From Mya arenaria (lineage: Eukaryota > Mollusca > Bivalvia > Myida > Myidae): a stretch of DNA of 64,000 nt. The stretch is from assembly GCF_026914265.1 (NCBI RefSeq), contig NC_069122.1, positions 36,135,473-36,199,472 of the forward strand, read 5' to 3'. The position numbers and the translations under genes were made by a program. This document shows positions 4,101 through 55,324 of the stretch, piece after piece (the stretch's first letter is position 1; every line of letters starts with the position of its first letter). The notes under the pieces are model-generated. The model saw nothing but the letters and a program-made list of their open reading frames with translations. It did not search any database and was not told the DNA's origin.

Positions 4101-7100
4101 AACGTGTGACAAATCATAAGGAGTGTTCAAACTAAAAAACTACTGACGTCTGGAACCGTTTAACAAAGGTTGATGTATGATCAAATTATGTCATTGAAGT
4201 CCACAACTTTGAAATGCGTAACTAACTCGATGAAATTAAAGACTGCAGCGTGAATGGTTGATTGAGTCCATGTGGAGGATCGGTAAAAGAAAATAGTTGT
4301 TATCTATTCAGGACTGCGCCGACGTGGGTTTACTGCCCATTAAAACCAGGGGGGTATACTTTAATGGTAAATAGACCTTTTAATATGACAAGGTCAAAGC
4401 CAAACATGCATTTAATAAATGGTAGAAACTGATAATTCATTTGGTTTTACTGCAAAATATGAAATTCGGTAATTTAAGTATTTGAGTGCTTGAATGTTAT
4501 ATTAGTCGATTATACATCAAAATTGGACTCTTCCATAATTCATGTTTGGTGATGCATTCGTCAAAATCGATGTACGGAAAATGAATGAGCAGAAAACATT
4601 AAAATCTTCGAATGTCACTGGCCCGAACACTTACAAACACTAGTCTACGCCAAGTAAATGCTAACTTTTACTACTGACACTATTTATGCAAATAAACTGT
4701 GGTGGATAAATAGACAGACTGAAATGAACTCTACGAAACTATATTTGGCGCATTCGTCAGAATCGATCATAGTAAAATGAAGGCACGGAAAAAATAAAAT
4801 ATTCTCGATTCTGATTGGCTTTCAAAAAATCCAAAGACCAAGTTAATGTGGAATTTGTTAAATGCCGAGGCAAGTTGTGTGAAGTTTGGCGCCCGCAAAT
4901 CAATCTCCCAATGAATTTCTACGTTATTTCTTTGGCTGTTCAAAGGCGATAACCCATGTGATATTTGGCGCCTGTTGACTGGGTAATGTTTTAAGTGGCT
5001 TAGTGTGTTGATACTTTGAGCAATGCTGAAGCGTTTTGTCTTGTTTGTTTTGCCTTAAAAATTGTGCATAAAGAACAACGTTTTTTTTCAATTATACTTA
5101 CATAGTCAATGGTGACGTTGTTGATGTCTTGTTCTCCATCAATTACAAAGAAGTCAAATACGGTGCTATCAAAACACTGAAGTATTATAGTCGTTGTGCT
5201 GCAATAAAAGACAGCAATCATCAACATTATTATCATCTCCAGCGTCCTCATCGTCATATTCGTCGTCGTCGTCGTCGTCGTTATCGTCATCATTATCAGG
5301 AAACAGATGAGATTATTAATGTACATTAACAACCGCTGCCTTTTTCAAATATATGTCATGTATTTATAATTTAATTCAAATATAATAATTACTATTTATG
5401 CAAATAGCTGTAAGTTTTACGTTACCGTTTGAAGTCACCTTGATCCGAAGTGTATGTCAAGGTCAGTGTTCCGTTTTCGTCAACGTTGAAATTGGCACTA
5501 TCCTGTTTACCTAGATCGTACATTAACGGGTTGGGAAAGCCTGGGCGTATCATACATACCTGATGGAAAAAAAATGTGGAAGTTAAGTAATGTTCATATT
5601 GGTTGTGTTAAGATAAACTGTGTACCACAATGGTGTCTCTCATCTAACCACCTCTGTTATAGTACACATTTTTGAACATCCACATTTATTGTGTAGAACG
5701 AGTAATCAAAATAACGTAAATTAACTACGTAACCAGAATATCTAACTGAAAATGGGCAATTAATGAATGATTTGTTGTTTGTTTTGTTTTTAAGAGGAGA
5801 AATGTTGAAGACATCAACGGCAGCATTTCGAACAACATACGTTTTAAACATAAAATATCAAACAAAACATAGACATAATGCGAACGCATGTTTTTGCAAA
5901 ATGATATGGTCTGCACGGGAGGATAACTTATGGACACAATGAGACCGCCTTTTCGGGAATTTGATTTTCCTTCAAGTTTTGCATCTATAATACTACCGAT
6001 TCAAAGTCTTTAACTGCCCAATTGTTGGGGTTTAGATAACAGACTTGCAATAAGTCTACATCACGTGGGTGTGTCAGCCGCCACACGGTTAAGTTAAACG
6101 TTGATAGGTGTATTCGTAAAACATGCAGTTCTGTTCAAACCTTGGTACGCAGATATAAGATCATGTGTACAGTATAAAAGGAGCAAGTCTACATCACGTG
6201 GGTGTGTCAGCCGCCACACGGTTAAGTAAAACGTTGATAGGTGTATTCGTAAAACATGCAGTTCTGTTCAAACCTTGGTACGCAGATATAAGATCATGTG
6301 TACAGTATAAAAGGAGCAAGTCTACATCACGTGGGTGTGTCAGCCGCCACACGGTTAAGTTAAACGTTGATAGGTGTATTCGTAAAACATGTAGTTCTGT
6401 TCAAACCTTGGTACGCAGATATAAGATCATGTGTACAGTATAGAAGGAGCATTTTATTAAACGAATATTATTCAACTAAAACAGTACCGCAACACCCTCA
6501 CACTCGGTGTTATTTTTCGGTCCTATGTAGGAGAAAGGCACGCACGGGTTCCACGAGTATGTGTCCCCACTACCTGCATTGTCGGTCTTGTTGCTGAAAC
6601 TAACAATGGATCAATTTGTTACCACTAGTTAAACACGATGTGGAGTTTTTGTTGCTGAAAATAAGAATGGATCTATTTGTTACCACTAGTTAAACACGAT
6701 GTGGAGTTCTTGTTGCTGAAACTAACAATGGATCTATTTGTTACCACTAGTTAAACACGATGTGGAGTTCTTGTTGCTGAAATTAACAATCTATTATTTG
6801 TTAACATTAGTTAAAACACGTTATGAATTTCTTGTTGCTGAAACTAACAATGGATTAATTTGTTAAAACTAGTTTTTTAACATGTTTTGAGGGTTTTTTG
6901 CTGCAATTAACGAAAGTAATTGATGACATTAGTTATTTACTAGTTGTTTAAACACGTTAAGGAGTTTTTGTTGCTAAAACTAACAATGACTATATTTGTT
7001 AACACTTGTTATCTAAACACGTTGTGGGATTCTTGATGCTGAAACTAACAATGGATTTAATTGTTGACATTTGTTATCTAAACACGATGTGGATTTCTTG

Positions 7101-8003
7101 TGGCTTAAACTAATATGGATTTATTTGACGACACTAGTTTTTTAAAAACGTTGTTAATTTCTAGTTGCTGATAATAAAAATAATTGATTCATTTATTGAC
7201 ATAGCTTGTTTAAACATTTTGTCAATTTCTTGTTGCTGAAACAAACAACGGATTCATTTGTCCTACCTAGTGACTTGACACACACTTAATCCAGACTGAC
7301 TGCACCAGTTTACAGAAAGACATTTGTATTCAGAAACAAGTTTAACAAACAAAAAAAATTAAACCCCGACCCTCCTCTTTCTTAAGGGAAGAGAGAGAGG
7401 AGACGATACTTTATTTTTGGCAACTCGAATATAATGTTGCCAAAAAATGTTTAAGTTGATATTAAATGTGTTACTGCCCTTGGTTTTGGCCAATGAAGTA
7501 TTTGAACCAAGACGCAAGAGGTGGAGGTCATATGGTAAATGTTTTCGCATTATTAAAATAATGGGAATTCAACACTAACACTAACCCTAACTATCCCTTA
7601 CCAACATCAAATTCCTAAAAGTTGGCCATGGTTAAACAAAACTTATTAGAAGGGATGCGTCCTACACTTTCTCTACTATTCTTACATACTTCTATTGAAC
7701 ATTAAAAGTACACTGCAAATGAATATTTCAATTATGCCAGGTAAATGTTAAATTTCAATAATAATCTTCTTTAAGTTACAAATAAATAAAACCGTTTCTT
7801 AAAAATTTACTCTTAAAAATAACAAACTTTTAACGAAAATCTTACTTTGGCAGGCCATCTGTTCTTGCCAGTGATGTCAAATTGACTATCAATCCATCAT
7901 CGTAGACACAGGAGCATGAATCTATCGTATGGCAGTTTCCTTGTTGAGCTGAAACTGTCTCAACTACCAAAAACAATCCAATAAAAAGTACCAACAGTTT
8001 CAT
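1186..8003 (-). CDS. M6PR: Cation-dependent mannose-6-phosphate receptor-like protein, copy 1 (7 exons)
   Basis: Coding exons, in transcript order: 7846-8003, 6488-6593, 5426-5559, 5102-5198, 3604-3707, 2628-2754, 1186-1242; total 783 nt, 260 residues. All introns are GT..AG and the phases join exactly. Residues 1-19 are a signal peptide (MKLLVLFIGLFLVVETVSA). An MRH-type lectin domain fills about 24-180 with eight Cys (24, 30, 32, 70, 84, 90, 141, 175). Residues 193-215 are a membrane span. The tail has ESGMRLCPNHQFW, matching the GMEQFPHLAFW stretch of vertebrate M6PR, and ends with the YXXhydrophobic signal YESI. Counting from the shared Cys141, R133, E155 and Y165 fall exactly at the bovine ligand-contact positions R111, E133 and Y143; the Q66 position is Met91. 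Sequons include N54, N80, N117 and N160. The family carries M6P-tagged hydrolases from Golgi to endosome. Length is close to human M6PR (277). The start is the Met shared by both paralogues. A TTTAG upstream of the ATG in both could end a 5' UTR intron. Confidence 0.85.
4548..4850. repeat. Two diverged copies of a dispersed repeat in intron 4 of copy 1
   Basis: The motif GCATTCGTCA(A/G)AATCGAT occurs at about 4553 and 4748, each followed by similar AAAATGAA / GGAAAA sequence. A third copy lies at 48298-48380 in intergenic DNA. No clear terminal repeats or tRNA-like head were seen, so the class is unknown. Confidence 0.45.
5205..5303. repeat. Degenerate CAT/CGT triplet tract next to exon 4 acceptor, copy 1
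   Basis: An imperfect triplet tract (atc, atc, cgt x7 and similar) lies just upstream (minus strand) of the exon 4 acceptor at 5199-5201. The paralogue has a much longer, purer tract at the same place (14492-14728), so a triplet seed existed before duplication. Confidence 0.75.
6052..6450. repeat. 133-bp unit in triplicate, intron 2 of copy 1
   Basis: Three direct repeats of exactly 133 bp start at 6052, 6185 and 6318. They are nearly identical, so the triplication is recent. Each unit contains CACGTG near its start and ends with GTATAAAAGGAGC or its variant GTATAGAAGGAGC. The second paralogue has a single diverged unit at about 15484-15645, so triplication happened in copy 1 after duplication. 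Confidence 0.9.
6594..7262. repeat. Intron 1 minisatellite carrying copies of the exon 2 splice acceptor (copy 1)
   Basis: About eleven units of 61-68 bp. Each begins on the plus strand with a version of GTTGCTGAAACTAAC, which read on the minus strand is GTTAGTTTCAG followed by CAAC. The first unit is the real acceptor of exon 2 (6594-6596) with the first exon bases. At least five further units keep the TTTCAG|CAAC form. The rest of the unit is (C/T)AATTTGTT..ACTAGTTAAACACG-like. Confidence 0.85.
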
Positions 8004-14616: not shown

Positions 14617-17600
14617 CCTCCACCACCACCACCACCACCACCATCATCAATATCGTCGTCGTCGTTACCACCATCACCACCATCATCATCATCATCATCA
14701 TCATCATCACCATCATTATTATCATCACAGAAGCAACAAATAAGTTAAAATGCGCATTTACTACAGTTGCCTTCCTTCAAACGAATGCCATGTATAGTAT
14801 TACTTTAAGTTTAATTGAATGTTTTTATAAAAATAGTTACCGTTTGAAGTCACCTTGATCCGAAGTGTAGGTCAAAGTCAGTGTTCCGTTTTCGTCAGCG
14901 TTAAACATAGCACTGTCCTGTTTACCTAGATCGTAGATTAACGGGTTGGGAAAGCCTTGGCGTATCATACACACCTGATGGAAAAAGAATGTGTTAGTTT
15001 GGTGATGTTCACATAAATGATGTTCATATACGTGATGTTAAGATAGGTGTAAGATTAGCGGTACTATCATGGTAAAAAGTTGATATCTACTTTTAATGTG
15101 TAGAACGTATAAACAAAAAAAACATAGAATAACAATAAGAAAAACTAACTAAAATGGGAAAATAAAAGTTTTTGTTTGGTTGGTTGTTTTTTTAATTAGG
15201 ATTAACACCAAACACATCCAAGCCAGCAGATCGAACAACATACGTTTAAAACATAAAATATCAAACAAAGCCTGTGCATAATGCGAACGCTTTGCAACCT
15301 GCTATGGTTTCCACGGAGGATACACAGGAAACGTTAAGCTATTATTGCTGACCATATGCAGGGTTTTAATATACCAAATGAGACCGCCATAAGGGGATTT
15401 GATCTGCTTGCAAGTTTTGTTATTGAAACACTACCGATTCAAAGCATGTATTTACCCGATGGGTGGGGTTTAGACAGCAGACTTGCAATAATTATACAAT
15501 AATTATACAACACGTCTGTTTGGTAGCCCCCACACGGTTAAGGAAAACGTTGACATGTATATTCGTGCGAACATGAGTAACTATGAAGGCTCTTCAAAAA
15601 TGTGCTAACGGGTATAAGATCATGGAGACGCTATGAACGGAGCATTTTTATTAAGAGGATATTAGTAGACTAATACATTACCGCAACACCCTCACACTCG
15701 GTGTCATTATTCGGTCCTATGAAGGAGAAAGGGACGCACGGGTTCCACGAGTATGTGTCCCCGTGATTGTCGGTCTTGTTGCTGAAACTAACATCGGATT
15801 TATTTGTTGAAACAAGTTATTTTATCACGTGTGGATTTCTTGATGCTGAAACAAACACATCGTTTATTTACTGATACTAGCTATTGAATCAAATTGTGGA
15901 TTTCTTGCTGCTGAAATTAACAATATTGTTATTTGTTGAAACTAGTTATTTAATATACATGTGGTAGTCTACTTGTTGCTGAAACTAACAAATGATTTAT
16001 TTGTTGAAACTTGTTTTTTAAACATGTTCTTGACTACTTGTTACTGAAACTGACTCATTATTTATTTGTTGAAACTTGTTTTTTAAACATGTTCTTGACT
16101 ACTTGTTACTGAAACTGACTCATTATTTATTTGTTGAAACTTGTTTTTTAAACATGTTCTGGAGTACTTGTTACTGAAACTGACTCATTATTTATTTGTT
16201 AAAACTAGTAATTTAAACATGGTTTGGACTACTTGTTACTGAAACTGACTCATTATTTATTTGTTGAAACCTGTTTTTTAAACATGTTCTGGACTACTTG
16301 TTGCTAAAACTAACTCTTTTTTTTTCAGTCAAATTTCTTGAACATAGCAATCGGTTATTTAAATATTGATTCATAATTGAGCATGCAAACTTAAGTGATA
16401 CCCTAGATAACGCTGTGTTTTGTCTTATTTTACTTATTAGCATTATACAATGCCCTCACAATTTAGATAAACTTAATCCAGACCATCTGGGCCAGTTTAG
16501 AGTAAGAAAATGCTATTCAGAAACAAGTTTAACAAAAGACAAAAAATTTAATTCCCGACCCTCCTATCCTATTTTACGGGCAGTGAACTAGAAAACTAGT
16601 AAATTGAATACGGTGTTATCTTTTTAAGATGACATTAAGTAAGATATTGACCTTGGTTTTGGCAAATGAAGTTTTTGACCTAAGACACAGTAGTTGGAGG
16701 TTATTAGACGGTTTTTGGCATTTTTAAAATAATTGACGGAACTCAAAACTAACCCCAACCCCAACTAACCCTAACTTTTTGCGTTATTCAAAAATCAAAA
16801 ACCCTAGATATTGATTTCGGAAATGGGTCGTGTTTTAACCTTCCATGTGGCCCCGCAGTGCCGTGTAAATGTGCTGGTTTTCTTTTCGAAAATAGCGGGA
16901 GATGGGTCTTACCTAGGATGTCTTCTTCGGGGTGCGTGGGGGGCATTTGGTGGTGGGGATTTAACCAGCAGTTTGTCTCCGCAGAGCAGGGATTTTACCT
17001 GGGATTGGCTTAACCGAAGGCCAAAGTTCTCGGTCTGGGGAAGGAGGGCGTGGTAATAATTGACTGGTGCATTACGGACACAACATATGCATCATGACTC
17101 GGTTTTTAATCTCGGTTATTTGATATCAATACAAAATATTTCGATAAGGGTTTTTTGCATAGTACTGGCTAATCTAACTAGTTTTCTATTAAGTATGGGA
17201 AAAACTGTTTGTAAATGTTTCTTTGCAATAATTTGGTATTCCATGTTTAGTTCTCTTCTTCTTTAAATGCGCTTTAAGAGTTAGGATTTCAAAAATTTAC
17301 AGACTTTAAGACGCAACATTCTTCAATATCAAAACTTAAAGTTTAGTTTTTCATGTTTTCATATTTTGCCCATAGTAAACAAAACTTACAAAGAAAGGAT
17401 ATGGCATACACTTTCTCGACCATCCCACATACTTCTATTAAACATTGAAAAGTATTGTGCATATGATTATTTAACTTATGCCAGGCGTATATGTAGAATT
17501 TCTATAATAATCATTTTAAAAGATACAAATAATTAAAAAAGTGGTTTAGAAGTACAACTTAAAGATAACAATTATTATGCGAAAATCTTACTTTGGCAGG

Positions 17601-18905: not shown

Positions 18906-19598
18906 GTTTGGTTTTGATCCCTGTGCTCCCAGATAAGAGCACTTTTATTGGAATTTTAGACTGCTAGTTTTATATTTGATGGCAAATCTTGGATCTTTAG
19001 TACCTATTTAGTCGCTATTAGGCTTTAACAGTAAGTTGTTCTTCTTGACCAATTAACAATCACAATGAAACGGAGAGTTTAGTATTAGGAATACAATGTC
19101 TGCTTATAAATCATCCCTCTTACAGACCGCATTCCAGACAAAACTATTGAAACTTAAACGGATGCAAGGTTTTTTTCAATGTTATAAGCAGTTTGAAAGT
19201 ACAATGTCTATGCACTGAAAAATAGACTTTGCAGCCATTTGTATTAGACTATTTTTTGTCATATAAGACAAAACCGGTGTTTTGGTTAGTCAAAATTTAT
19301 CTAATTATTATTACTAACCAAACATATTATTTAAATGTCCAAACTAGTCAAATGTTTGCTAAAAACGTTATATAACTGGCGGCAAGTGTGTAATTTAATA
19401 CTAATAATAAATCAGTATTAACGTTTAACTAAACAATATGATGAATTTATATATACTTATACAGTAAATTCTGCTTATCCCAAACATGGCGTTATTGTTT
19501 CTGAAATTTTAAGTTACCTGAGTTAATATTAGTCTACCCCCCTATCCATTAGCTTAACTTAATATTCTATTTTCCATTGTAAGGCTCTGGGCGACGAC

Positions 19599-20008
19599 CA
19601 TTCTCGTACACCAGAGTGATGATACTATGCCATTCGGAACTCCTCGGTCATTTTTATCGAAAAACAACATCGGATGTATTTGGACGGTTTACATACTCAA
19701 AAAGTGGTACGTTTAAGTCCGCTGCAAGTAGATCGCGTAGTAATTTTATTTAGCAGTTGAACTTTATGACTTAACTCTTTGAAATCTTAATGAAGTTTGC
19801 AATAATTCACTTCGCTGGCAATCAATTTAAACTAAGATCAATAAATGCAACTCTAAAACACTACATTTAATTAATGATATAATTCAAAAATTTACGAACT
19901 ACTTCAACTGATATACCGGCATACATCCGAGGTTGTTTTCGATAGAAATGGCCGAGGAGCTCCGAATGGATACTATGCGTACCACAAACCTCTGATGAAT
20001 GAGAATGA
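19599..20008. mobile_element. 410-bp MITE with 8-bp target duplication (hAT-like)
   Basis: The left end CATTCTCGTACACCAGAG and the right end (reverse complement TCATTCTCATTCATCAGAGG) form terminal inverted repeats of about 19 bp. The 8-mer GCGACGAC flanks both sides (19591-19598 and 20009-20016), a direct target duplication of the size made by hAT elements. Inner inverted stretches (CCATTCGGAACTCCTCGGTC and its complement near 19955) make it largely fold-back. No coding sequence is present. Confidence 0.75.
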
Positions 20009-20016
20009 GCGACGAC

Positions 20017-21890: not shown

Positions 21891-21948
21891 CCAAGGGACT
21901 AATATGAAATGATATTACTTTCGCCTCGTAGAAGATAAAATCAAACTT

Positions 21949-23144
21949 ATGAAGACAATCAACGTAGAAATGTTAGAGAACTTTGATTTAGATTACTTTG
22001 TGGATGATTATTTTGACGATTTATCGCAATCGCCGTATTCCTCCGCGGACGATGATTTAAAATTTTATCAAAATGGGTTTGCGAATTTCGGTGAACATAT
22101 GATTTGTGATAAAAATTATAAATTTGGAAAATCAAAACGTCGAAGAAAGAAATGTGGTCAGTTTCAAATTCAACAAAGACACGCTGCCAATCTCCGAGAA
22201 CGACGGAGAATGCAGTCCATAAATGAGGCTTTCGAAGGTTTACGGACACATATTCCAACGTTACCGTATGAGAAACGTCTGTCAAAAGTTGACACGTTAC
22301 GATTAGCTATAGGCTATATAGGCTTTCTGGCGGATATGTTAACATCTACGGCATCAATGGGAGATGAATCTGAAAGATCTCTACGGAACCAAAGAAAAAT
22401 TATAATTCATTGCCATGAAGGTATGTATTTCTTAATAATTTACACAGCAAAGTATCAGATTTCGAGGATTTAGTTTTTTAGATACTAAATAATTTTTGCT
22501 ATTTCGTTGTTTCGAATAGTCCGTGTTTATCTATTTTATCATTTTTTTTTAATAATCGGACAGGCTAGCTATCTAAGTGATATCAACTCAAAATATATAT
22601 ACATATATATATACGATATTTAAATGACATTGAGAATACAAGTATTGGCAAAAAGGAATGTTCGAAAATGCTTACCTCAAAATAATTCTCAAATGTTTGC
22701 TAAATATATTTTTAAACAAACGCTATTGTTGCCATGTTTTTTTTTCTTTTAAAGGTTTTATTTTTTTTAACAGTAATAATCATTTGCTGAGGAACGCTTT
22801 ATTTCTTTCCAATTCTTATTAAATGCGCAGTGAATAAGAAATTCATTAGTAATAAAATGCAACTTTACTTTCTTTTATTTTCAGCCTTCGATCCGGAAAA
22901 CCCGTTTGCGGCCCCATATTTGATAGGACATTCACTATCTTGGAAGAATGAAAAAGTGCCAACTCTTGGGCCTAATAACACCATGTCAGCAAAAATATGG
23001 AGGCCCGAGGCGCCCGAGAAAATTACTGACATTAAAACCGAGAAGCAAGTCTGTGATAGTAAGGTTAAAAACTGTACAAAATCTAAAACAATCGAAAGTG
23101 AAAAGGTGGACGAGAACATTGAAGTGGAAATTGATAAAACTTGA
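21949..23144 (+). CDS. PTF1A: Ptf1a / Fer1 bHLH transcription factor (2 exons)
   Basis: Exons 21949-22420 and 22885-23144; the intron has GTATGT and TTTTCAG borders, and phase 1 makes a split Ala codon. The product is 243 residues. An acidic N-terminus (1-40) is followed by a basic run KSKRRRKK (61-68) and a bHLH domain at about 77-131 with [17 protein letters not shown] and [19 protein letters not shown], nearly identical to vertebrate PTF1A. After the domain KIIIHCHE matches KVIICHRG of vertebrates, and the intron falls at the same place. Exon 2 keeps GHSLSW (Trp177) and AKIWRP (Trp196), matching the C1 and C2 motifs that bind RBPJ/RBPJL in the PTF1 complex. The protein is shorter than human PTF1A (328) because of a compact N-terminus. 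In animals this factor acts in the nucleus to specify neurons and, in vertebrates, pancreas. The start is the first Met after the TATA box. Confidence 0.93.
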
Positions 23145-26124: not shown

Positions 26125-26611
26125 CAGTGTGTGTATACCACGTGATAAATTGCGTCATAAATGCTACGTCGGAAGGCAGTATTGTACTTCGAATGAAGAC
26201 TTTAAACAAAGATAATTTCACTATTTCTTTACCATTTTCAATGAAACATAGCGCAGTCTACGCCGCTTACGGAGCCCCACCTCCGGTCTTTTACCAGAGT
26301 TTGATTGAGAGTTTAGTTTCTTAAAACACTTCGACAAACCTTTTCACAATACGGACGTCTGACGGAGCACTGTCAAAAAATTATTTTGGAAACAGGTTTA
26401 TGGAAGTGTTTGATGAAACTAATCACCTTATCGAACTCCGGTAATAAAACGAAGGCGGGGCTCTTAAAGTGGCATAGTCTGCCCTTTGTTTCATTTAAAA
26501 TGGTGTAGTAAAAGAAAAGTTATCTTTGATTTAAGTCTTCATTTTAAGAAAAAATATTGTCTTCCGACGTAGCATATATGACGTAATTTATCACGTGGTA
26601 TACACACACTG
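26125..26611. mobile_element. 487-bp fold-back MITE with ATTAA duplication
   Basis: The two halves are inverted repeats of about 190 bp. Outer ends are CAGTGTGTGTATACCACGTG and its complement, and inner parts match through GAAGACTT and AATGAAACA to GAGCCCC. ATTAA flanks both sides (26120-26124 and 26612-26616). The open frames here are by-products of the inverted repeat. Confidence 0.75.
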
Positions 26612-34463: not shown

Positions 34464-34661
34464 CACCAAGAGTATATCCTTCGTGCACCAAGAGTATGTC
34501 CTTCGTGCACCAAGAGTATGTCCTTCGTGCACCAAGAGTATGTCCTTCGTGCACCAAGAGTATGTCCTTCGTGCAACAAGAGTATGTCCTTCGTGCACCA
34601 AGAATATGTCCTTCGTGCACCAAGAGTATGTCCTTCGTGCACCAAGAGTATGTCATTCGTG
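34464..34661. repeat. 22-bp minisatellite, 9 units
   Basis: Unit CACCAAGAGTATGTCCTTCG plus TG, nearly perfect. All overlapping open frames here derive from it. Confidence 0.95.
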
Positions 34662-37613: not shown

Positions 37614-37823
37614 AGATGCTTTTCGGGTTGAAAGAGGTCATTATCTAGTTTATACTCATTTGTTTTAGTTTCATTGTAAAGACAGAGTCGATTAATAAGA
37701 AATTTTGGCAGCTTTTATTGGATTCCTTTTCTGTATAGATAATCCGACATGAGTTCTGGCAGATATTACTGGTTCCATTGTTTGTATATTTCATCAGACG
37801 TTAGCAGTTATGGTAACTATAAC

Positions 37824-39266
37824 TGGATCTATTATTTGTATATTTGTATAACTGTATCCATTGTTTGTATATTTGTATAACTGGATCCATTGTTTGTATA
37901 TTTGTATTACTGTATCCATTGTTTGTATATTTGTATAACTGGATCCATTGTTTGTATATTTGTATTACTGTATCCATTGTTTGTATATTTGTATTACTGT
38001 ATCCATTGTTTGTATATTTGTATAACTGTATCCATTGTTTGTATATTTGTATAACTGGATCCATTGTTTGTATATTTGTATTACTGTATCCATTGTATGT
38101 ATATTTGTATTACTGTATCCATTGTTTGTATATTTGTATAACTGGATCCATTGTTTGTTTACTTGTATTACTGTATCCATTGTTTGTATATTTGTATAAC
38201 TGTATCCATTGTTTGTATATTTGTATAACTGGATCCATTGTTTGTATATTTGTATTACTGTATCCATTGTTTGTATATTTGTATAACTGGATCCATTGTT
38301 TGTATATTTGTATAACTGGATCCATTGTTTGTATATTTGTATTACTGTATCCATTGTTTGTATATTTGTATAACTGGATCCATTGTTTGTATATTTGTAT
38401 AACTGGATCCATTGTTTGTATATTTGTATAACTGGATCCATTGCTTGTATATTTGAATTACTGTATCCATTGTTTGTATATTTGTATAACTGGATCCATT
38501 GTTTGTATATTTGTATAACTGGATCCATTGTTTGTATATTTGTATAACTGGATCCATTGCTTGTATATTTGAATTACTGTATCCATTGTTTGTATATTTG
38601 TATAACTGGATCCATTGTTTGTATATTTGTATTACTGTATCCATTGTTTGTATATTTGTATAACTGGATCCATTGTTTGTATATTTGTATTACTGTATCC
38701 ATTGTTTGTATATTTGTATTACTGTATCCATTGTTTGTATATTTGTATAACTGTATCCATTGTTTGTATATTTGTATTACTGTATCCATTGTTTGTATAT
38801 TTGTATAACTGGATCCATTGTTTGTATATTTGTATTACTGTATCCATTGTTTGTATATTTGTATAACTGTATCCATTGTTTGTATATTTGTATAACTGGA
38901 TCCATTGTTTGTATATTTGTATTAGTGTATCCATTGTTTGTATATTTGTATAACTGGATCCATTGTTTGTATATTTGTATAACTGGATCCATTGTTTGTA
39001 TATTTGTATAACTGGATCCATTGCTTGTATATTTGTATTACTGGATCCATTGTTTGTATATTTGTATTACTGTATCCATTGTTTGTATATTTGTATTACT
39101 GTATCCATTGTTTGTATATTTGTATAACTGTATCCATTGTTTGTATATTTGTATTACTGTATCCATTGTTTGTATATTTGTATAACTGGATCCATTGTTT
39201 GTATATTTGTATTACTGTATCCATTGTTTGTATATTTGTATTACTGGATCCATTGTTTGTATATTT
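37824..39266. repeat. 29-bp minisatellite, about 50 units
   Basis: Unit GGATCCATTGTTTGTATATT plus TGTATAACT, with two common variants (GGATCC or GTATCC; TAACT or TTACT). Four-unit higher-order copies are visible: a GCTTGTATATTTGAATTACT variant recurs about 116 bp apart (about 38441 and 38557). Because 29 is not a multiple of 3 and stops are rare, long frames stay open on both strands. These are not genes. Confidence 0.97.
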
Positions 39267-39900
39267 CATTAGACATTATAAGTTCTGACTACTATTACTT
39301 GATCCATTGTTTGTATATTTCATCGAGCGTTGGAAGTTCTGGAAACTATTAATACACTTTTTCTGTATAGATAGTCATATGTTAGGTTTGAAAACTTTTC
39401 CTTGATCCATTGTTTGTATATTTCATCAGACGTTAGACAATCCGGCATCTATTACTGGATACATTGTTTGTATATTTCATCAGACGTCAGATGTTCTGGA
39501 AACTAATACTGGATCCATTGTCTGTATATTGCACCAGACAATAGAAGGTCTGACAACTACTAGTATTACTGGAACCATTGTTTGTATATTCCATCAGACG
39601 TTGGAAGGTCTGGCAACTATTATTGGATCCATTGTTTGTATATTCCATTAGACGTTGGAAGGTCTGGCAACTATTATTGGATACATTGTTTGTATATTCC
39701 ATTAGACGTTGGAAGGTCTGGCAACTATTATTGGATACATTGTTTGTATATTCCATCAGACGTTGGAAGGTCTGGCAACTATTATTGGATACATTGTTTG
39801 TATATTCCATCAGACGTTGGAAGGTCTGGCAACTATTATTGGATCCATTGTTTGTATATTCCATCAGACGTTGGAAGGTCTGGCAACTATTTGGGATCCT
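39267..39900. repeat. 54-bp minisatellite B
   Basis: About eleven units, six of them nearly identical (about 39575-39890). Unit begins GGATCCATTGTTTGTATATT and continues with CCATCAGACGTTGGAAGG and TCTGGCAACTATTATT. The first 20 bp are those of the 29-bp unit. Confidence 0.95.
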
Positions 39901-40119
39901 TGTGATTTGTCTAAATATCTCATTAGACGTTGAAAGTTTATACAAACTTTGATAAGTTGTCCAAATATTATCTTTGGGATAGTTAACACATTTTATTTAT
40001 TTTGACTCATCAATTAAAGGATTGGGCTAATATTAACTAACCCAAAGAATAAACCAATTTCTAAAATTGACTGCAGTTATGTTTATCTAGAGTCCCTCAC
40101 TGCACATTATTCATCAAAT

Positions 40120-40440
40120 GTTGGAATTCCTTGAAACATTTATTGGATTACTTGTCTGTATACTTCATCAGACTCTGTACGTTCTGGTAACTGTTATTGG
40201 ATTCCTTGTCTGTATACTTCACCAGACTCTGTACGTTCTGGTAACTGTTATTGGATTCCTTGTCTGTATTCTTCATCAGACTCTGTACGTTCTGGTAACT
40301 GTTATTGGATTCTTTGTCTGTATACTTCATCAGACTCTGTACGTTCTGGTAACTGTTATTGGATTCCTTGTCTGTATACTTCACCAGACTCTGTACGTTC
40401 TGGTAACTGTTATTGGATTCCTTGTCTAGGTATTATTTCA
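40120..40440. repeat. 54-bp minisatellite A
   Basis: About six units beginning GGATTCCTTGTCTGTATACT and continuing TCATCAGACTCTGTACG and TTCTGGTAACTGTTATT. It has the same length and layout as array B and is a diverged sister. Confidence 0.95.
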
Positions 40441-41239
40441 GCAGACGTTGGAAGTTCTGGCAACTAGAACCGTTTGGATAGGAGTTCATACCTTTGTATG
40501 ATGTATATGAAGTAACCGCATGTTGGATATTTCGTGTACAACTTGTATATCATAACCTCAGAAGTCGGATTCCTTCTCTATGTCTGGTTCCCCCGTACAT
40601 TGGATGGTATGGCATCTTTCGATATTCAGAGTGTCACAGAAATCGAATCATAATTTTAACTTGAGAATTCTCATAGACGTAAAATTATATTTCAAAACAA
40701 ATCGTTTTGTTATGTATCCTATTTCATCGTCAGAATAACAAATTCACTCATCTCTGAAATCCTTACCTAATAATAGTAGTAAACGATACCTAAGTCCATT
40801 TATCGCTAATCCCCTTCTACCATCTATCATCTTCTTCACAGCAAGAACCTATTTCACCATCCGTTACGGTGGCAATCTCTTATGCTAAATACACCACAAC
40901 TGAGTATCTGTATTTATTTAATGTTTTCGTCATAAATAAAGCACGATTCAACACTTCATAGACTTGTTTCGATTGAATTGACAATGGAATTCGTTTTGTT
41001 TAATCACCAACATTCTTACTTCTTTTCACAGTCCAAATTTTGGTCAGAGTATATGAGATGAACTCCTTCAAATAAAAAAATACACAATCAATTTCTACGA
41101 AGTGTTCAGGTTTTGTAGATAAAGCTTGACTTAAATGTTTCTAAATATGTTTAGAATAACATTGTTAATTAAACATGTAATATCATTTGTAACAAAACCT
41201 TTTAAATACCCTCGTAGTATATGGAGCAGTAATTCTTAG
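40441..41239. other. Spacer between minisatellites, no gene seen
   Basis: A few degenerate 54-bp-like motifs remain at the left (GCAGACGTTGGAAGTTCTGG near 40441). The rest is AT-rich without recognisable features. Confidence 0.4.
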
Positions 41240-48430: not shown

Positions 48431-48439
48431 CTTAACACG

Positions 48440-49278
48440 CATTCTCGTTCACCAGAGTGATGATGCTATGCGTACATTCTCGATCACCAGAGTGATGATG
48501 CTATGCGTACATTCTCGTTCACCAGAGTGATGATGCTATGCGTAATTCTCGATCACCAGAGTGATGATGCTGCTATGCGTACATTCTCGTTCACCAGAGT
48601 GATGATGCTGCTATGCGTACATTCTCGTTCACCAGAGTGATGATGCTATGCGTACATTCTCGTTCACCAGAGTGATGATGCTGCTATGCGTACATTCTCG
48701 TTCACCAGAGTGATGATGATATGTGTACATTCTCGTTCACCAGAGTGATGATGCTATACGTACATTCTCGTTCACCAGAGTGATGATGCTGCTATGCGTA
48801 CATTCTCGTTCACCAGAGTGATGATGCTATGCGTACATTCTCGTTCACCAGAGTGATGATGCTGCTATGCGTACATTCTCGTTCACCAGAGTGATGATGC
48901 TGCTATGCGTACATTCTCGTTCACCAGAGTGATGATGCTATGCGTACATTCTCGTTCACCAGAGTGATGATGCTATGCGTACATTCTCGTTCACCAGAGT
49001 GACGATGCTATGCGTACATTCTCGTTCACCAGAGTGATGATGCTGCTATGCGTACATTCTCGTTCACCAGAGTGATGATGCTATGCGTACATTCTCGTTC
49101 ACCAGAGTGATGATGCTATGCGTACATTCTCGTTCACCAGAGTGACGATGCTATGCGTACATTCTCGTTCCCCAGAGTGATGATGCTGCTATGTGTACAT
49201 TCTCGTTCACCAGAGTGATGATGCTATGCGTATCACAGTTTGATTTATCACGATCGTACCTCTGATGAATGAGAATGC
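48440..49278. mobile_element. hAT-like MITE whose left end is a 35-bp satellite
   Basis: The element starts CATTCTCGTTCACCAGAG and ends (inverted) GCATTCTCATTCATCAGAGG, as in the MITE at 19599-20008. Near-matching 8-bp flanks TTAACACG (48432-48439) and TTCACACG (49279-49286) look like its target duplication. Between them the left-end sequence CATTCTCGTTCACCAGAG, TGATGATGCTATGCGTA is repeated about 23 times at 35 bp, or 38 bp when an extra GCT is present. Confidence 0.8.
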
Positions 49279-49691
49279 TTCACACGATGCTAGCAGGTTA
49301 CACGACCGTATTTACCGGTGTGCGAGGATAACTATATCTGATATAAGAAAATCATAAGCGATGTGTTACTGATGTATATAGATCTTATAATATATGAATC
49401 ATGTAAAAAATATACGATTTGGTCATGTACTATATTTCGATTTTAACTTAACTATCTCAAATGGATGTGTAGCATGGACACTCTTTATCAATATTTCGAA
49501 CGTAACGTCCTCGGTATCACATAAACTCTTACATTTCGGATTTGATTATGAATAAGAATAGGCGGAGTAAGCGTAGCAGACATATTTGCAAACATATTTT
49601 AGGGTGCCGCGTAAGCTTTATCTTTCAAAATATTGTCCACAAAATATGAATATAGCTCACGATGCGGTTGAGAAAAAAACGCGCGAAATCC

Positions 49692-54318: not shown

Positions 54319-54324
54319 TATTAT

Positions 54325-54398
54325 TGGCCATTGTGGGGGTCGAACCCACGACATTCGCGTTATTAGCACGACGCTCTAACCGACTGAGCTAAACGGCC
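54325..54398 (-). tRNA. tRNA-Ile (anticodon AAU)
   Basis: A complete cloverleaf of 74 nt. The acceptor stem GGCCGTT pairs with AATGGCC (one G-U), and the discriminator base is A. The D arm is GCTC..GAGC. The anticodon stem TCGTG/CGCGA encloses loop CTAATAA with anticodon AAT. The T arm is GTGGG TTCGACC CCCAC. A box and B box (GGTTCGACCCC type) are intact. There is no intron and no encoded CCA, as expected for a nuclear eukaryotic gene. A T5 terminator follows at once. It looks functional, in contrast to the degenerate tRNA-like heads of the SINEs. Confidence 0.96.
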
Positions 54399-55324
54399 AG
54401 ATGTCAGATCGGATGAAAATGTTAGATATATTCAAATCTACTAAAGTTACACCTATGTAAGTTGTCAGATTTTCTAAAAAAGCTTAAGAGTCAATGCTCA
54501 TAAATAAAGGCAATCAAAGGCTCATAAATAAAGGCAATCAATACATTTAGTGCAATTGATATATGCGATGTAGCCATATAGTAAGGTTGCAATAATAAAG
54601 CTTTGTATAAAATGATTATTCTAAAATTAGACACAACACGCTAAATTAAGCAAAGGGAGACTACCTAAATAAAAAATGAAGATTAATTACTATGAGTAGT
54701 TTCCCTTGTATTCCTGATCGGCGTGGCAACAATTTATATTTCATCGGACTGTACAGAAAAACATAATTTAATTTATGGTTTGTGAAAAGTTAGATGTATC
54801 AGATGCATCCTTCAGTACGCTATGATGTACAAATGAATTTAGGTTCCCGCGAAATTGCAAGTGATAAATCAGGATAAAAAAAAAAAAATTATGAGGGGGT
54901 GTAAACTGTACCAGTACTGTATATTCATGCAAGTTTTAACTAATTGGTAGCGTTCAGAATGCTTGAAAATGGTTCCTTTATAACTGTATTCTTGAAAACA
55001 AATCCTACGGCACGAGACATTCCCCCACCCCCGCTTCTACCCCATTAGATAGCAAACACATAGATTTGGACCAAAATAAATTAAATACCTTTCACATACT
55101 CAAACCGCTTAGTGTCGAAGTCTTGCTACATATTTGGTTGAGTTGAGTTTGGACCAGTATCTAGAAAAAGGATCACAAAGTTGAGAAAGTTAAGAATAAT
55201 CAGTGTGTTGCACTATGCATCGTTTATTCATATTATTATTGAAAATGTATTTTTTTGAAAAGGACCCAAGGTATGCACCTGGATTTAGGACTAAATATAT
55301 TAATCATCTTTCCATCTTAAAGTT

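Follow-up and report, generated by a model that had tools for sequence, protein, structure and literature searches.

The locus holds a tandem array of 22 head-to-tail units that spans 793 bp inside one element copy within the window, that is, within the whole 64-kb stretch of DNA that was analysed (Table 1). The array starts exactly at 48440, as the preliminary description had stated for its 35/38-bp repeats, but a recount of the units gave 22 and not about 23. Fourteen units are 35 bp long and eight belong to a 38-bp class, which is the 35-bp unit with an extra GCT triplet; unit 4, which belongs to the 38-bp class, lacks its first base. TRF reported the same span with a period of 35 bp, 22.0 copies and a score of 1300. 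Across the 769 sites of the units, 9 substitutions relative to the consensus were counted.

Each unit carries a full left terminus, as its start corresponds to the outermost base of the element. The left 18-mer is present in 22 of 22 units at no more than two mismatches, and in 19 of them without any. At this threshold, the 18-mer was found at 25 sites in the window against an expected 0.00, namely the 22 array units, one site at 19599 and two inverted right ends (19990 and 49260). The period of the array begins at the outermost base of the element, where the preceding flanking base is G compared to A as the last base of the unit. At the right edge, the base after the last unit breaks the period; in the one-unit copy described below, the base following the unit is a C, as at the start of a unit, and one base of microhomology at the right edge of the array is possible. 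ORFs of at least 120 aa were not found overlapping the element, and a coding role for it is unlikely. The name satellite was rejected as too large for a single array of 22 units and 793 bp, which is a minisatellite inside an element. Of the transition from MITE to satellite that had been described, the identity of the unit as the left end of the element was retained.

Table 1. Positions of the two copies of the element, their parts and their target-site duplications in the window
Feature	Positions	Strand	Remark
Left 9-bp target-site duplication of the one-unit copy, GGCGACGAC	19590..19598	+	8/9 compared to 20008-20016
One-unit copy, bases 1-31 of the unit	19599..19629	+	29/31 bases shared with the commonest array unit
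Target duplication of the inner MITE, left, 8 bp	19622..19629	+	9 or 10 bp with the terminal C/G
Inner MITE, 340 bp	19630..19969	+	terminal inverted repeats of 50 bp (90% identity)
Target duplication of the inner MITE, right	19970..19977	+	
One-unit copy, bases 32-35 of the unit (CGTA) and right arm of 26 bp	19978..20007	+	
Right terminal inverted repeat of the one-unit copy	19990..20007		
Right 9-bp target-site duplication of the one-unit copy, AGCGACGAC	20008..20016	+	8/9 compared to the left copy
Left 9-bp target-site duplication of the 22-unit copy, CTTAACACG	48431..48439	+	8/9 compared to 49278-49286
Array of 22 head-to-tail units	48440..49232	+	each unit opens with the 18-bp left terminus (at most two mismatches)
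Outermost left terminal inverted repeat, 18 bp	48440..48457	+	16/18 compared to the right end
Units 14-17, 143-bp block (A, A, A with T22C, B)	48912..49054	+	resembles units 18-21
Units 18-21, second 143-bp block	49055..49197	+	unit 21 with two more substitutions
Unique right arm, 45 bp	49233..49277	+	follows the last unit
Right terminal inverted repeat, 18 bp	49260..49277	-	16/18 compared to the left end
Right 9-bp target-site duplication of the 22-unit copy, CTTCACACG	49278..49286	+	8/9 compared to the left copy

Ends, target-site duplications and class of the element

The 22-unit element has a total length of 838 bp. Its right end, which had already been recognised beside the array, is present and closes the element at 49277. 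When duplication lengths from 5 to 12 were compared, 9 bp alone gave a near match (8/9), whereas 0 to 5 positions agreed at the other lengths. The flanking duplication, previously read as a near match of 8 bp, is therefore present but 9 bp long; at 8 bp only one of the eight positions matches. An inverted-repeat tool run with a 9-base seed reported neither the outer end pair of the array copy nor that of the one-unit copy, because the mismatches leave only shorter exact runs.

Both copies have the following features of a MITE: they are short (61 and 838 bp) and non-coding, with 18-bp inverted ends (16/18 and 15/18 matching) and target-site duplications of 9 bp that match at 8/9 positions in 2 of 2 copies. 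Mutator-like elements make duplications of 8-10 bp, usually 9 bp, and 9 bp was found at both copies. A 9-bp duplication is not exclusive to Mutator, and Merlin and others can give 8-9 bp. No transposase domain was found with Pfam in the 8 ORFs that were scanned of the 21 listed. The element does not have the form of a foldback element, as the left end alone is repeated, the right arm is a single copy and no inverted pair was detected at a 9-base seed. It is probably a non-coding, non-autonomous cut-and-paste transposon that is Mutator-like by its 9-bp target-site duplication.

Chance expectation was measured by scanning the whole window for inverted ends combined with a 9-bp duplication (at most one mismatch) at an element length of 40-1499, and by repeating the scan on 40 dinucleotide shuffles. 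With ends matching at 14/16 positions or more there was one hit, the array copy, compared to a mean of 0.05 and a maximum of 1 in the shuffles. At 13/16 or more, a threshold chosen after the 14/16 scan and with the one-unit copy already known, there were two hits, exactly these copies, compared to a mean of 0.2 and a maximum of 1. MITEs typically have many dispersed copies, and the number found for this element in 64 kb is two. Other arrays in the window gave no hit in the scan with 9-bp duplications. Among pairs of 9-mers drawn outside arrays, the probability of a match at 8/9 positions or better was 0.00026, and with arrays included it was 0.0011. An exact 8-bp duplication with ends of 13/16 gave two hits in the window compared to none in 40 shuffles. 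One was the MITE inside the one-unit copy; the other, at 34589-34646, was rejected as an element and taken as a periodicity artefact because it sits within a 22-bp array.

The edges of 13 arrays were also compared, hand-picked from 39 TRF rows after overlaps had been merged and microsatellites and short arrays excluded, and the best two inverted pairs per array were taken. The array at 48440 gave 14/16, six of the other 12 had pairs of 12-13/16, and six had none. Pattern searches found no match to the unit in viral_contigs or genome_contigs and no match to the inner MITE in viral_contigs. The right 18-mer matched one contig of the viral collection, which was judged to be chance from the surrounding 401 bp, and its matches in five bacterial MAG contigs (L002-L006) are presumed to be chance.

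The one-unit copy and the history of the units

The second copy of the element lies at 19599-20007, a region that the preliminary description had presented as an intact MITE of 410 bp (19599-20008). This reading was dropped because the interior of 340 bp is bounded by 50-bp inverted repeats of its own and by a perfect direct duplication, and because the array units show the same site uninterrupted. Instead, the region is a nested pair, in which a one-unit copy of the array's element is split by a different MITE. Past base 31, the array unit resumes at the far side of the inner MITE. Thus, the units had rightly been said to carry the terminal inverted repeat, but the bases that follow in them are, beyond base 31, those past the inner MITE.

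Without the inner MITE and one copy of its target duplication, the one-unit copy is 61 bp long and consists of a 35-bp unit and a 26-bp right arm; the unit lies entirely within the element. It differs from the array consensus at two positions over the first 35 bp, and its inverted ends match at 15/18 positions. The right arm is 19 bp shorter than the 45-bp arm of the array copy, and the last 20 bp of the two arms are identical. The one-unit and 22-unit forms are about 28 kb apart, each with its own target duplication, and sequence comparison indicates that the window holds both forms of one non-autonomous Mutator-like element.

The duplication around the inner MITE is perfect as 8/8, 9/9 or 10/10, depending on the placement of the terminal C/G pair, and for its superfamily (hAT or Mutator-like) the 8-bp reading and the 9-10 bp readings are equally perfect. 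The motif CATTC is found within the ends of both the inner MITE and its host element, which may be due to chance or to related transposases.

Position 10 is T and position 26 is G in every one of the 22 units, compared to A at both positions in the one-unit copy. This implies that the units either share a common ancestor younger than the split from the one-unit copy or were homogenised. The array was evidently amplified or homogenised in its own lineage, after parting from the lineage of the one-unit copy.

The classes of the units follow the order AAABBABAABABBAAABAAABA. The rare T22C is common to both 143-bp blocks, in register, and TRF scored a 108-bp (three-unit) period at 1331 compared to 1300 for the 35-bp period. 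A duplication of the 143-bp block (units 14-17 and 18-21) is suggestive only and not significant. Compared to shuffles, the order of the unit classes gave p 0.42 for the best lag and p 0.21 for the longest exact run, and the initial coding of the units gave p 0.35 and p 0.11, respectively. Runs anchored by variants gave p 0.14 and 0.21 against shuffled orders, and a type-only run gave p 0.73. A higher-order repeat structure was set aside as unproved, all order tests being non-significant. The two GCT classes are interspersed, as had been noticed, but since the order of the units is no different from shuffles (p 0.21 and 0.42), the multi-unit duplication thought to be implied by it is not established.

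Origin of the array

The best explanation, and in our judgement the probable one, is that a Mutator-like element existed in a one-unit minimal form and that its left unit was multiplied in tandem to 22. The minimal element would have had one 35-bp left unit, a short right arm, ends of about 18 bp and 9-bp duplications. We infer that the first duplication arose where a junction had been formed by the end of the transposon. Such a junction could result when the transposase cleaves the left end and the repair is faulty, or when the element inserts into itself and the surplus right end is then lost, and it would account for a unit that opens exactly at the terminus. Later growth to 22 units would have occurred by unequal exchange or replication slippage, which would also keep the units alike. 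A rough estimate is that, if breakpoints were random, about 1 in 35 to 1 in 80 duplications would begin at the terminus, and a single terminus-phased array can be due to chance.

Growth from a single unit to many is the favoured direction, given that T10 and G26 are found in 22 of 22 units and A at both sites in the one-unit copy, though two copies leave it unproved. Likely consequences are length instability and several possible left ends for the transposase. More tentatively, each of the 22 units might be a working left end that the transposase could pair with the single right end, an idea that we consider rather doubtful. If true, a parent with the array would give daughters with 1 to 22 units and recombination would rebuild the array; the element would have a self-renewing variable end, and the cut of the transposase at the terminus would set the phase of the array. 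With a one-unit and a 22-unit form, each with its own duplication, the seeding of arrays by transposon ends becomes testable.

It is conceivable, but we think it improbable, that the ancestor already had multiple units and that the one-unit copy was shortened, either because the transposase used the left terminus lying farthest in or because units recombined with each other. Transposition would then lower the unit number and recombination raise it. The left 18-mer retained by every unit would fit this course of events, as would a one-unit copy that begins exactly at a unit start and has its own 9-bp duplication. However, two sites set the one-unit copy apart from every unit of the array, and its right arm is 19 bp shorter, so that it is not a recent offspring of this array.

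By analogy, the element might be foldback-like, with one end extended by subrepeats that add binding sites for the transposase and raise mobility. An advantage of this kind has been proposed for Galileo and Tetris (PMC4079207), and tandem repeats are found in the terminal inverted repeats of Tm1, a Mutator/foldback family whose duplications are 9 bp long (PMC3169594); these and the further literature statements below rest on portions of the cited papers. Here, however, only one end is repeated, and as the right arm carries one terminus without an array to match, there is no long fold-back. A foldback-like nature of the element is therefore unlikely.

Capture of a pre-existing 35-bp satellite by the transposon would have a parallel in Xenopus, where tandem-repeat capture was proposed for miDNA4, according to a review (PMC12628747). 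In contrast, the unit studied here begins at the outermost base and includes the left terminal inverted repeat, and a target duplication without an array is seen at the one-unit copy. The position of the array within a transposon-like copy, with ends and a duplication, and the identity of its unit as the left end argue against capture; for an unrelated satellite it is unlikely because the unit carries the terminus of the element. We regard capture as very improbable.

Finally, an ordinary minisatellite lying by chance beside an inverted 18-mer, with no transposon involved, might be suggested by the share of the window bases in tandem arrays (about 14% by a hand-made list), but it is hardly credible when the right end recurs exactly at a second place, a 9-bp duplication is found at both, and no other array in the window was hit in the scan with 9-bp duplications.

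Related systems and the surrounding window

MITEs with tandem repeats have reportedly been found in clams. In general, the monomers of tandem repeats often resemble terminal inverted repeats or other repetitive parts of elements (PMC9659126), and many such element-derived cases are listed in a review (PMC6947457). The nearest systems are Tm1, Tetris and BrickBuilt. In Tm1 from root-knot nematodes, 45 of 53 target duplications were 8-10 bp long (PMC3169594). Like the element described here, this family has 9-bp duplications, MITE-like members and terminal repeats that contain short tandem repeats in variable numbers, and one instance of a nested second element resembles the one-unit copy (PMC3169594). 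In contrast, the Tm1 repeats are 13-15 bp long and lie inside separate terminal motifs at both ends (PMC3169594), whereas here the unit itself is the terminus and the left end alone is repeated.

Tetris/TIR-220 of Drosophila virilis was assigned to Mutator by its authors and is a seed for satellite arrays, and its tandem repeats were suggested to come from part of the foldback terminal repeat (PMC4079207). However, its units of about 220 bp are internal to the terminal domain, with which they share a 37-bp stretch (about 80%), and kilobase arrays outside elements were shown for Tetris (PMC4079207), compared to the one array inside an element found here. BrickBuilt, a MITE of Porphyromonas gingivalis, is similar in having a minisatellite within a MITE and copies of 1 to 22.8 units (PMC4596501). 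It differs in being bacterial, in having duplications of irregular length and in its 23-nt unit, which has an internal position and is flanked by a leader and a tail bearing the inverted ends (PMC4596501).

MITE-related tandem arrays are also known from Xenopus, as Xstir (from the MITE Xmix) and miDNA4, and the latter occurs as a single monomer or as an array, as does the element studied here (PMC12628747, PMC9659126). The source region of Xstir is given as the terminal inverted repeat in a table of one review (PMC9659126) and as internal MITE sequence in another (PMC12628747), and Xstir may be a precedent for a unit derived from a terminus. Unlike the present case, miDNA4 is described as a captured repeat in a Tc1/mariner MITE (PMC12628747). 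The coral CMITE likewise forms MITE-related tandem arrays, but these consist of full-sized MITEs in tandem that are related to piggyBac-like transposons (PMC2872659).

Tandem repeats in MITEs or in foldback terminal inverted repeats are thus already known, and what is unusual here is that the unit begins at the outermost base, for which a partial survey of the literature found no described case. As described in the portions of the papers cited above, the repeats of Tetris, Tm1 and BrickBuilt lie inside a separate terminal domain, whereas here the repeated unit is the terminus.

The window has a G+C content of 35% and looks like part of an animal genome. An ORF at 21913-22473 encodes a bHLH protein (Pfam HLH, E 1.4e-21), which resembles the pancreas factor Ptf1a. 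A reverse transcriptase fragment was also found (RVT_1, E 1.1e-15), and the sole Rfam match in the window was a tRNA-Ile (AAT) gene on the minus strand at 54324-54399. The tandem arrays, which make up about 14% of the window in the hand-made list from TRF rows, have many different periods. Two copies of a larger dispersed element with 61/65-bp tandem arrays are present at 6323-7601 and 15506-16775, and their array flanks can be aligned with each other on the left and on the right. A long hairpin, MITE-like element at 26125-26611 has 59-bp inverted ends (93%) and inner arms of 168 bp (76%). At 37818-40465, a 29-bp array of 50 copies adjoins arrays with a 54-bp period. Of the 29 bases in its consensus, 25 agree with the opening 29 bp of the 54-bp consensus, and one period looks to have been derived from the other by a loss or gain of 25 bp.
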